Assembly: GCA_947644715.1 (NCBI GenBank)
Contig: CANSAP010000005.1
Span: forward strand, 1 to 64,000
Length of the DNA: 64,000 nucleotides
From: an uncultured Bacteroidales bacterium
GTDB taxonomy: Bacteria; Bacteroidota; Bacteroidia; Bacteroidales; Muribaculaceae
Reading direction: 5' to 3'
Of this stretch, positions 28,111 through 31,090 are shown one piece after another (positions within the stretch are counted from its first letter, which is position 1; every line of letters starts with the position of its first letter). The notes beneath the pieces are model-generated. The model saw only the letters and a program-made list of their open reading frames with translations. It was not told the DNA's origin and made no database searches. The position numbers and the translations under genes were made by a program.

Positions 28111-28142
28111 ATTGGCCGAGTGAGTTTTTCTTCGTAATTTTG
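28111..28142 (+). promoter_or_regulatory. Promoter of the purN-CD225 gene, abutting its start codon
   Basis: ATTG (28111-28114), a 20-bp spacer and TAATTTTG (28135-28142) are followed by TGAC and then ATG at 28147. It is divergent from the DUF2723 promoter, with 35 bp between the two -33 boxes. Confidence 0.8.
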
Positions 28143-28146
28143 TGAC

Positions 28147-29265
28147 ATGAAGCAGTTAGCGATATTTGCATCGGGCAGCGGCAGCAACGCCGAGAACATA
28201 GCCCGTCTTTTTCATCAGGGCAACCGCATACGTGTGGGGGTAGTGCTCTGCAACCGGAAAGAATGCGGAGTCTACCAACGCATGGAGGCTCTCGGCGTGC
28301 CGGTGATCTACATGCCCAATTCCTCCTGGGACTCTGACCCTGAGCGCGTCATCGAAACCCTCCGTCCCTACGGCATCGACATGATTGTGCTGGCCGGATT
28401 CATGCGCGCCGTGCGTCCTGAGATAATAGACTTCGTGGATGGTCGTGTGCTCAACATCCATCCCTCGCTGCTGCCGGCCTACGGTGGCAAAGGGATGTTC
28501 GGCCACCATGTGCATGAGGCCGTCATCGCCGCCGGCGAAAAACGGAGCGGCGTGACGGTGCACTACGTCACTGAAGAGATTGACGGAGGCGACATCATCA
28601 TGCAGCAGGAGCTTGAGGTGCTCCCCGGCGACACTGCCGCCACCCTCGAAGAGCGAATCCACGCCTTGGAATATGACCTCTATCCCCGCGCCATAGTCAA
28701 GGCTTTGGGCGAAATGACGTCGGCCGCCGTGCCCCCTCAGATACCGGTGCCGCACCCTCAGGCTGCCGACTCAGCGCCGAAGCCCGCCGCCCCGGCCTCA
28801 CCCTCAGCCGCGCCGGTCACCCCTCCCCCCGCCTCCCCTGACGAGGCTTGGGCCAAGGCTCTGCATATCAACAACTACTCCGACCGCGAGGCGGAGCGTG
28901 CCCGCGCCCGCGCCGAAGAGCGCCGCGTGCCCCCACCGACAGGTGTCGCTGCCGGATCCCCCGCCACTCCTCCCCCCGCAGGCTCGCTGATGCACCCCGC
29001 CGTGGCCGAGGCGCTCGCCGAAGGGAAACAGATTCCCAAGAGCTACATGTGGGTCAGCATCCTGATGGCAGTAATCTTCTCAACCATACCGGGCATCGTG
29101 GCCATAGTCTACTCCGCCTCCGTCAGCAGCCGCCTGAGCTGCGGCGACCTGGCCGGAGCCGAGAAAGCCAGCCGCATGGTCCAGGGATGGATTATAGCAT
29201 CCTTCGTCATCGGTGTGCTCTCCGCCACCCTTTGGGTGCCCATCTCCATCCTCACCGGGTTCTAA
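28147..29265 (+). CDS. purN: PurN (GAR transformylase) fused to a CD225/dispanin membrane domain
   Basis: 372 residues in one unbroken frame. Residues 1-195 are a complete phosphoribosylglycinamide formyltransferase: GSGSN substrate loop (10-14), catalytic Asn103 and His105 in NIHPSLLP, and Asp146 in EEIDGGDII. It transfers formyl from 10-formyl-THF in step 3 of purine synthesis. Residues 196-295 are a Pro/Ala-rich linker with a charged RERARARAEERR-like patch. Residues 297-372 match the CD225/dispanin two-helix module (PGIVAIVYSASVSSRLSCGDLAGAEKAS followed by a second helix). Such a fusion would tether PurN to the membrane. The stop lies inside a 23-bp tandem repeat. A secondary start inside the linker, giving a separate CD225 protein, cannot be excluded. 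Confidence 0.88.
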   Translation: MKQLAIFASGSGSNAENIARLFHQGNRIRVGVVLCNRKECGVYQRMEALGVPVIYMPNSSWDSDPERVIETLRPYGIDMIVLAGFMRAVRPEIIDFVDGRVLNIHPSLLPAYGGKGMFGHHVHEAVIAAGEKRSGVTVHYVTEEIDGGDIIMQQELEVLPGDTAATLEERIHALEYDLYPRAIVKALGEMTSAAVPPQIPVPHPQAADSAPKPAAPASPSAAPVTPPPASPDEAWAKALHINNYSDREAERARARAEERRVPPPTGVAAGSPATPPPAGSLMHPAVAEALAEGKQIPKSYMWVSILMAVIFSTIPGIVAIVYSASVSSRLSCGDLAGAEKASRMVQGWIIASFVIGVLSATLWVPISILTGF

Positions 29266-29303
29266 CTACCATCCTCACCGGATTCTAACGACCATCCTCA
29301 CCG
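29247..29303. repeat. 23-bp tandem repeat spanning the purN-CD225 stop codon
   Basis: Two 23-bp units (29247-29269 and 29270-29292) differ at only two positions (shared word CATCCTCACCGG, then TTCTAAC). A third copy breaks off after CATCCTCACCG. Each full unit would encode the terminal Leu-Thr-Gly-Phe-stop, so the duplication leaves the protein end unchanged. Confidence 0.85.
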
Positions 29304-29335: not shown

Positions 29336-31090
29336 ATGAATCTCACCGCCGTCGAGCAAGCCATGATTGACAGCGCCTTCCGCGAGGTGCTGGATGCCTA
29401 CGTCTCCAGCCACCACCGCAAAAAAGTGGAGCTGATTACCCGCGCCTTTGAATTTGCCCAGATGGCTCACAAGGGGATGCGGCGCCGCAGCGGCGAGCCT
29501 TACATAATGCACCCCCTGGCCGTGGCCCGCATCGTTATCTGCGACCTTGGACTGGGATCCACCTCAATCTGCGCCGCGCTCCTGCATGACGTGATTGAAC
29601 GCACGGAGTTTACCCGCGAGGACATAGCCCGCAACTTCGGCTCCCGCATAGCTGACATAGTGGAGGGTATCACCAAAATCTCCGGCGGCATCTTCGGCAT
29701 CAATGCTTCAGTGCAGGCCGAGAATTTCCGCCGCCTGCTGCTGTCGATGAGCACCGACGTGCGAGTGGTGCTGATTAAAATGGCCGACCGTCTTCACAAC
29801 ATGCGCTCAATCAGCTTCATGCGCAAGGAGAAGCAGAAGAAGGTGGCCGGCGAGACACTTTACGTCTATGCCCCCTTGGCAGAGCGTCTCGGCCTCTTCA
29901 GAATGAAAGAGGAGTTTGAGGATCTGGCTTTCCGCTACGAACACCCCGACAAATATGCCGAGATTACAGCCCTCGTGCAGGAGGGCATGAGTCAGCGCGA
30001 CCGGATGGTCGAAGAGTTTGTGGCGCCGGTGCGTCGCCAGCTCGACGAAGCCGGATTCCGCTACACCATCAAGGCGCGCGTCAAGAGTGCTTACAGCATT
30101 TGGCGCAAGATGGAGAAGAAGAAAGTGGGGTTTCATGACATCTACGACATATACGCCGTCAGAGTGGTCTTCGAGAATGATGACGACTCGCTTGAAGCGC
30201 TTCGCTGCTGGCAAATATATACTTTCTTCTCCGACGGGCGCCGCATTCACCCCGACCGGCTGCGCGACTGGGTCACCGCACCGAAGAGCAACGGCTACCG
30301 CGCGCTGCATCTGACCGTGATGGGACCGGAAGGCAAATGGATTGAGGTGCAGATACGCTCCGAGAAAATGGACCGGCTGGCTGAGCAGGGCTTGGCCGCC
30401 CATTGGAAATACAAAACCGGCGAAGGGGATGACGAAACCGAGCTGGACACCTTCATGAATACCATCAAGGATATTCTGGCTAATCCCGAGCCAAATGCAA
30501 TTGACTTCCTTGACACGGTTCAGTTCAATCTCTTTGCCCGCAAAATCTACGTCTTCACCCCGAAGGGTGACCTGATATCGCTCCCCTCGGGAGCAACCGT
30601 GCTCGACATGGCCTTCGCCATCCACACCCATCTCGGGCTGAAATGCATCGGAGGAAAGATAGCCCACCGGCTCGTGCCGCTGAGCCACACTTTGGAAAGT
30701 GGCGACCAGGTGGAAATCATCACCTCCGAATCGCAGATGCCCGTGGCTGAATGGCTCGAGTTCTGCCACACTCCCACGGCCAAGAACCGTCTGCGCACAG
30801 CCCTGCGCAAGGAGAAAGATGCCGGGCTGAAAATCCATGCCACCCGGCCGGCCAAACGCGACATCTCGCTGGCACTGGAAGCTGCTCCGCGCCACACATT
30901 GGCTGAGGAGCTGATGAGGGTCGTGTGCAGCGGAATGCGCATCGAGCTTTGCCTCCTGGCCATGAAGCGGGAGCAGGGATGCGTGCGCTGCACTCTGAAT
31001 CTGCGCATCTCCGAGCACACCCCGGTTGAGGCCATCATAACCGAATTGCAAAAGTTGAAAGGGATTACCCGCTGTCTTCAAATTGGTTGA
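29336..31090 (+). CDS. RelA/SpoT homologue, (p)ppGpp synthetase with altered HD hydrolase motif
   Basis: 584 residues, shorter than the usual 730 or so. The HD domain (about 30-200) keeps His45, His84-Asp85 and Asp151 (ADRLHNMR), but the acidic pair after HD reads Glu88-Arg89 instead of Glu-Asp, which may impair hydrolysis. The synthetase (about 230-370) has RVKSAYSIWRKM, YDIYAVRVVF, SNGYRALHLTV and EVQIRSEKMDRLAEQGLAAHW. A TGS domain follows (YVFTPKGDLISLPSGATVLD). The last 70 residues resemble a compact ACT/RRM domain, and the helical and zinc-finger segments normally before it are missing. It is 7 bp upstream of the PgpH-like gene, suggesting coupled alarmone and cyclic-nucleotide control. 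Confidence 0.9.
   Translation: MNLTAVEQAMIDSAFREVLDAYVSSHHRKKVELITRAFEFAQMAHKGMRRRSGEPYIMHPLAVARIVICDLGLGSTSICAALLHDVIERTEFTREDIARNFGSRIADIVEGITKISGGIFGINASVQAENFRRLLLSMSTDVRVVLIKMADRLHNMRSISFMRKEKQKKVAGETLYVYAPLAERLGLFRMKEEFEDLAFRYEHPDKYAEITALVQEGMSQRDRMVEEFVAPVRRQLDEAGFRYTIKARVKSAYSIWRKMEKKKVGFHDIYDIYAVRVVFENDDDSLEALRCWQIYTFFSDGRRIHPDRLRDWVTAPKSNGYRALHLTVMGPEGKWIEVQIRSEKMDRLAEQGLAAHWKYKTGEGDDETELDTFMNTIKDILANPEPNAIDFLDTVQFNLFARKIYVFTPKGDLISLPSGATVLDMAFAIHTHLGLKCIGGKIAHRLVPLSHTLESGDQVEIITSESQMPVAEWLEFCHTPTAKNRLRTALRKEKDAGLKIHATRPAKRDISLALEAAPRHTLAEELMRVVCSGMRIELCLLAMKREQGCVRCTLNLRISEHTPVEAIITELQKLKGITRCLQIG

Follow-up and report, generated by a model that had tools for sequence, protein, structure and literature searches.

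GAR transformylases of the PurN family (TIGR00639) are characterized by a phosphate loop and by catalytic Asn, His, and Asp residues, and the chains of the 15 solved relatives considered here count 184 to 229 amino acids. In the trifunctional purine protein (GART, adenosine-3), a name found among the PDB hits, PurN is one domain of a larger protein that joins purine enzymes to each other. On the other side, the CD225/dispanin proteins (IFITM3, PRRT1/PRRT2, and the mycobacterial IFITMs) share two hydrophobic helices, a GxxxG loop, and a Pro-rich stretch before the domain. A section of PMC7665892 describes IFITM3 as a type II protein with a cytosolic N terminus, an intramembrane helix, a cytosolic GxxxG loop, and a transmembrane helix. 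As for bacteria, a passage of a 2015 paper (PMC4488726) states that the function of CD225 proteins "has not been studied."

We analyzed a stretch of 64,000 nucleotides (the window) from an uncultured Bacteroidales bacterium of the Muribaculaceae (contig CANSAP010000005.1), in which a single ATG-to-TAA frame of 372 amino acids (28147–29265, + strand) joins both families. Its residues 1–189 are those of a full PurN, including the phosphate loop and the catalytic Asn, His, and Asp, to which the protein adds 183 residues with a membrane module as compared with the solved PurN chains. PurN is likewise part of a larger protein in GART, but its partner in the window is not a purine enzyme. With regard to other CD225/dispanin proteins, the window protein is distinct by an enzyme as N-terminal head and by a missing CC pair. 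Our literature search found no paper naming the PurN and CD225 pair, the matches in PMC554113 being unrelated. Both domains are known; to judge from our searches, neither their combination nor its conservation and graded decay within one genus has been described.

Domain organization of the PurN-CD225 protein

The sequence-only reading of this locus had proposed a complete PurN continuing in frame, through a Pro/Ala linker, into a CD225 domain with two helices and a GDLAGAEKAS loop, and this description holds. The features are as follows (all on the + strand).

28135–28142, +: TAATTTTG, promoter-like TAnnTTTG match
28147–28713, +: PurN (GAR transformylase) domain, residues 1–189 (TIGR00639, PF00551, 3av3, AF2, Foldseek)
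28453–28461, +: catalytic Asn103 and His105 (NIHPS); N-x-H-P-S in 19/19 fusions
28582–28584, +: catalytic Asp146 (IDGGD); Asp kept in 19/19 fusions
28714–29034, +: Pro/Ala-rich linker, residues 190–296 (composition, low pLDDT)
28849–28863, +: WAKAL, the genus-specific WAx(2-3)L linker motif (motif count)
29035–29232, +: CD225/dispanin domain, residues 297–362 (PF04505)
29143–29157, +: GxxxG (GDLAG), residues 333–337, between both helices (sequence position)

The protein scores above the cut-off of the PurN equivalog TIGR00639 (156.0 bits vs 150.1), and Asn103, His105, and Asp146, found at the residue numbers already proposed, are invariant across a 22-row PurN alignment. Residues 3–183 match PF00551 in Pfam (E 4.9e-43), a GSGSN phosphate loop occupies residues 10–14, and the best solved relative of residues 1–189 is the PurN chain 3av3 (E 5.3e-36). 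Furthermore, the PurN part is confident, with pLDDT blocks mostly at or above 90, in an AlphaFold2 (AF2) model built from 22 sequences, of which only two carry the tail, and PurN structures rank first in a Foldseek search with this model (3p9x, E 1.4e-18). Upstream of the gene, the match to TAnnTTTG, which we take to be a promoter consensus, ends 4 bases before the ATG, so that the transcript would be nearly leaderless.

Residues 188–295 contain 20% Pro and 24% Ala, and the pLDDT falls below 50 at the linker stretches 194–223 and 261–280; a short helix is predicted by AF2 at residues 231–238, at the WAKAL motif. The tail that follows in the same frame matches PF04505 (E 1.6e-14, 54.2 bits vs a gathering cut-off of 27.1) and, among solved chains, finds as its sole match up to E 10 the PRRT1 chain 9zks_M (E 2.3e-6). 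Hydropathy delineates two hydrophobic segments (303–321 and 350–368), which lie within or at the ends of the helices predicted by AF2 at residues 298–331 and 335–363 (pLDDT about 75–85). The GDLAGAEKAS loop starts at residue 333 and contains the GxxxG motif, which is kept in all 17 fusions extractable by pattern (of 19); a part of PMC7665892 attributes the oligomerization of IFITM3 to GxxxG in the corresponding loop. Two hydrophobic helices within a CD225 domain make membrane tethering the natural inference, and the window protein is thus predicted to associate with the membrane.

The window protein lacks the CC pair of CD225, which is found in 45 of the 46 genus proteins (all but this one) and in 18 of 20 from other genera. 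This pair is the palmitoylation site in IFITM, and the Pfam model does not demand it. Between the window protein and that of G027, dN reaches 0.446 in the CD225 part and 0.21 in the PurN part. The loss of the CC pair, together with the faster divergence of CD225, suggests that the anchor may be weakening in the window. At 29234–29303, three tandem copies of a 23-base repeat extend over the stop of the PurN-CD225 frame.

Distribution of the fusion and of its decayed forms

The domain pair was searched across the family, as the sequence-only reading had advised, in genomes at least 90% complete: 48 genomes of the window's genus for the genus survey and 225 genomes from 26 genera for the family survey, 177 of which belong to other genera. 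Nineteen of the 48 genus genomes encode the fusion in full and in frame, namely the window's own and 18 others whose proteins share 44–73% identity with the window protein over the best segment; four less complete genomes of the genus (G012, G017, G018, and G019) encode it too. Outside the genus, no fusion occurs among the matches listed by score in the 177 family genomes, no other match listed by score reaches the CD225 part in 391 genomes of the order (392 including the window's own), and CD225 is absent from all 12 loci with a long PurN frame that were read. A pattern scan of named genomes, covering 72 loci, gave a full-length match in one, L053 ("Prevotella sp. isolate NALB_7963_9"), with a PurN domain identical to that of G150.

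Because 18 congeners share the in-frame fusion, the architecture can be put down neither to chance nor to a local error. Two genes separated by a stop codon within the linker, the arrangement that would have pointed to an assembly error or a read-through in one genome, were not found; the 18 congeners have an open frame, and with the same architecture in L053 such an artifact is ruled out for all practical purposes. A candidate triple fusion in G144 (793-aa frame) was rejected, as the ABC gene upstream is read in a frame of its own and no Pfam family matches residues 1–447 of the long frame. Elsewhere in the family, a 401-aa frame of another genus (L262, G268:C21) carries PurN followed by about 190 in-frame residues without CD225, which by eye resemble the start of an acetyltransferase (GNAT).

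Within the genus, the enzyme part of the protein is found in several states of decay. A half-PurN without the catalytic stretch precedes CD225 in 16 of the 48 genomes, a shorter remnant in three (G140, G159, and G155, matching the half-domain HMM with E 1.2e-9, 2.2e-9, and 7.6e-7, respectively), and eight genomes encode the CD225 tail only. The half-domains align to about residues 1–105 of PurN, some of them also to the stretch around the final helix of PurN (seven relatives shown), and N-x-H-P and the SGxGxN loop are absent from 19/19 half and remnant frames. Both forms arise from deletions inside PurN, the linker being without stop. The remnants retained in these 19 genomes directly show that the half and remnant proteins descend from fusions. 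Neither a PurN part nor the tail was found in the last two genomes, G142 and G165. In G142, a sister species for which a clean loss is possible, the contig breaks off about 197 bases 5' of its RelA/SpoT gene, and this flank holds no trace of CD225; elsewhere the genome has no PurN over the cut-off and no CD225 tail, only a weaker CD225 match.

The WAx(2-3)L motif precedes CD225 in 46/46 genus proteins (19 full, 16 half, 3 remnant, and 8 tail-only) and in 0/20 CD225 proteins from other genera. WAxxL-CD225 is retained without a whole PurN in 27 of the 29 non-fused congeners, which indicates that the tail has its own task; the tail is conserved more than the tethering of PurN. The existence of CD225-only relatives also suggests a tail able to function by itself, which, with the long low-confidence linker, would suit a post-translational cut in the linker that releases PurN in soluble form along with a small CD225 protein; we regard such processing as very unlikely. 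Among the eight tail-only proteins, six (L161, L046, L041, L162, L045, and L044) have the first glycine of GxxxG replaced, possibly by a single event since the placed ones form one rpoB clade.

Gene neighborhood and GYF_2-CD225 relatives

Neighboring genes were counted within flanks of only about 1500 bases at many loci. An MsbA-like ABC transporter gene lies upstream of 16/19 fusions, and a DUF2752 gene lies downstream of 8/19. The half forms have the ABC gene in 15/16 cases (13 on the same strand, two on the opposite one) and DUF2752 in 11/16, the remnants in 0/3 and 3/3, and the tail-only forms in 8/8 (same strand) and 8/8, respectively. The three fusions without the ABC gene form the window clade and are positioned before a RelA/SpoT gene. 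A genus-like ABC gene also directly precedes stand-alone purN at three of nine other-genus purN loci (L138, L140, and L143; Pfam match confirmed for L138 and L140), and a homolog of the TMEM260-like gene (PF11028) found upstream in the window is near stand-alone purN at L130 (G110). With the ABC-purN arrangement in only 3/9 loci and this homolog at L130, the ancestral site is unsure, and the window site might be older.

The CD225 proteins of other genera were compared on 20 of 24 rows from 11 genomes, after L247, L248, and L257 (from G142 and G165 of the genus) and L246 were dropped. Sixteen of the 20 resemble a protein encoded elsewhere in the window genome (L052), the GYF_2 domain of which was confirmed by Pfam. 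These GYF_2-CD225 proteins share with the fusions the same CD225 module and an often adjoining DUF2752 gene (11/20 rows, two of which share one locus, vs the 8/19 fusions), but their head is GYF_2-like instead of PurN and they are devoid of WAxxL. The GYF_2-CD225 of the window genome, its second CD225 protein, counts 177 amino acids (G000:C18:32864-33037; L032, L052).

Other GAR transformylases in the genus

A second PurN was found in none of the 19 fused genomes, and a full fusion is thus never accompanied by another PurN across the 48 genomes; the weak second matches sit in frames of 313–354 amino acids, which we read from their length as Fmt-like. PurT exceeds its cut-off in 25 of the 48 genomes, including the window genome and six further fused ones. 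As neither another PurN nor PurT is over the cut-off in 12 of the 19 fused genomes, the fused PurN is probably their sole GAR transformylase. The window genome has PurT, and its fused PurN need not be essential. The fused PurN of G141 and G034 fall just below the PurN cut-off (148.7 and 144.6 bits).

A stand-alone PurN or PurT is present in 28 of the 29 congeners lacking the full fusion. A separate, divergent PurN (196–225 bits) is encoded in G139 and in each of the 16 genomes with a half-domain; a purM match is directly adjacent to it in 17/17 cases according to coordinates (loci L165–L181). On its other side, a family match identifies purH in G008, and a gene of similar length occupies this place in some others. 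This purM-linked PurN possibly belongs to a purine cluster gained by horizontal transfer, which would have displaced the native PurN. Over the genus, purM exceeds the cut-off in 36/48 genomes, ten (including the window's) have a divergent match below it, and two have none. A third lineage of stand-alone PurN occurs in G143, G001, G030, G167, G009, and G165 (148.9 bits in the latter, just below the 150.1 cut-off), next to a CDF transporter in G143, G030, and G167, and five genomes have PurT only (G140, G159, G023, G162, and G142). The exception, G155 (90% complete), has a decayed PurN and neither another PurN nor PurT over the cut-off, and counts against replacement.

These data bear on the possibility that PurN is held at the membrane for the sake of metabolism, in an array or purinosome-like assembly or near substrate uptake. 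That 19 congeners keep the fusion, that its loop has a GxxxG as in oligomerizing IFITM3, and that most fusions follow an ABC transporter gene would fit such a role. Nevertheless, 29 of the 48 congeners live without the full fusion, 28 of these with a stand-alone PurN or PurT, and the CD225 tail outlives PurN in the half, remnant, and tail-only forms, which argues against purine synthesis needing the tether and makes this explanation rather unlikely. Of the interpretation first put forward, membrane tethering stands as the natural inference from a conserved fusion, and the purinosome-like assembly is a possible but unsupported reading.

Phylogeny and selection

In a PurN tree of 81 rows, built with a quick method, the fused domains fall into a group of 33 rows with stand-alone PurN from other family genera (support 89, not starred). 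The purM-linked PurN are separate, as one starred long-branch clade of 17 rows, and so is the third PurN type (9 rows), nearest to Prevotella dentasini (support 91). The rpoB tree holds 49 rows (42 of the 48 genus genomes plus seven others; the G208 row was left out) and sets the genus apart from the others as a clade (100/100). The window clade (G000, G142, G027, and G150) splits first with weak support (91/55), the deep branches being weak as well. The species with a full fusion are not grouped in a single clade; those with a remnant or the tail only are, together with G165. The half state needs three changes on the best tree, two of them forced by starred branches. This pattern makes the fusion the likely ancestral state in the genus. 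An independent-pairs test of decay against the presence of a second PurN comprised three pairs, too few for such a test (median p 0.5).

Substitution rates were compared for each part of the protein. The two parts of the fused PurN have dN of 0.03–0.21 in seven pairs, and the linkers 0.41–0.75 in seven pairs. For the half-domains, dS is saturated in eight of nine pairs (dN 0.19–0.53), which leaves one usable dN/dS ratio, that of G008/G149 (dN 0.135, dS 1.55, dN/dS about 0.09); in the same pair, CD225 has a dN of 0.033 and a dS of 1.26. Judged from these values, the half-domain is constrained, less so than CD225.

The loss of a stop codon may simply have joined two neighboring genes whose products work separately, with no functional coupling. 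The fast divergence of the linkers is compatible with such a neutral event, as is the occurrence of purN alone behind the same ABC gene in other genera. However, the frame is still open in 19 species, 16 others have lost the catalytic stretch and kept the frame into CD225 rather than separating the genes, and the half-domain is constrained in the one unsaturated pair; a neutral origin and maintenance is accordingly unlikely. In a more speculative proposal, improbable in our opinion, a purine enzyme recruited as head of an IFITM-like membrane module would have become, in at least 16 species, a dead yet constrained half-Rossmann domain acting as a sensor, which may bind GAR or another nucleotide and report the purine state to CD225 and its ABC and DUF2752 partners. 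If true, this would be an enzyme turning into a membrane sensor, with the intermediates alive in one genus.

Proposed role of the fusion

We favor, with a probability of roughly 0.6, an active membrane-anchored PurN that would be an exchangeable head on a more durable WAxxL-CD225 anchor. An intact PurN, the linker, and CD225, conserved across 19 species, are directly apparent from the sequences, and the best reading of the window gene is that its product would be a working, membrane-anchored PurN, probably self-associating. We infer its membrane insertion with the N terminus inside, its self-association through the GxxxG loop, and its activity. The C-terminal end of PurN would be anchored in the cytoplasmic membrane by the helical hairpin of CD225, and a topology of the IFITM3 type would keep the enzyme on the cytosolic side, where its substrates are.

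A single origin of the fusion in the ancestor of the genus is most likely: CD225 and DUF2752, as a pair, would have landed behind purN, PurN taking the place of the GYF_2-like head usual on CD225 in other genera. The durable function would be that of the WAxxL and CD225 anchor, mostly beside the MsbA-like ABC gene and often DUF2752, and the tail's own task is perhaps performed together with the ABC and DUF2752 proteins. Once another PurN or PurT was available, the fused PurN may have decayed to a dead Rossmann half, then to a third, and then to nothing, the tail staying in place; replacement would have come first and decay second.

The genus thus offers a natural experiment on domain fusion, with a full enzyme, a half, a third, or no enzyme before the same anchor. 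It gives a handle on the function of bacterial CD225 and a means to test whether a soluble biosynthetic enzyme gains from tethering.

Downstream of the fusion, positions 29336–31090 of the window encode a RelA/SpoT-type protein of 584 amino acids with HD, RelA_SpoT, and TGS domains, in which Pfam found no ACT domain. G142 has a similarly short frame (587), and the RelA/SpoT-type protein of L053 counts 741 amino acids with an ACT_4 domain.
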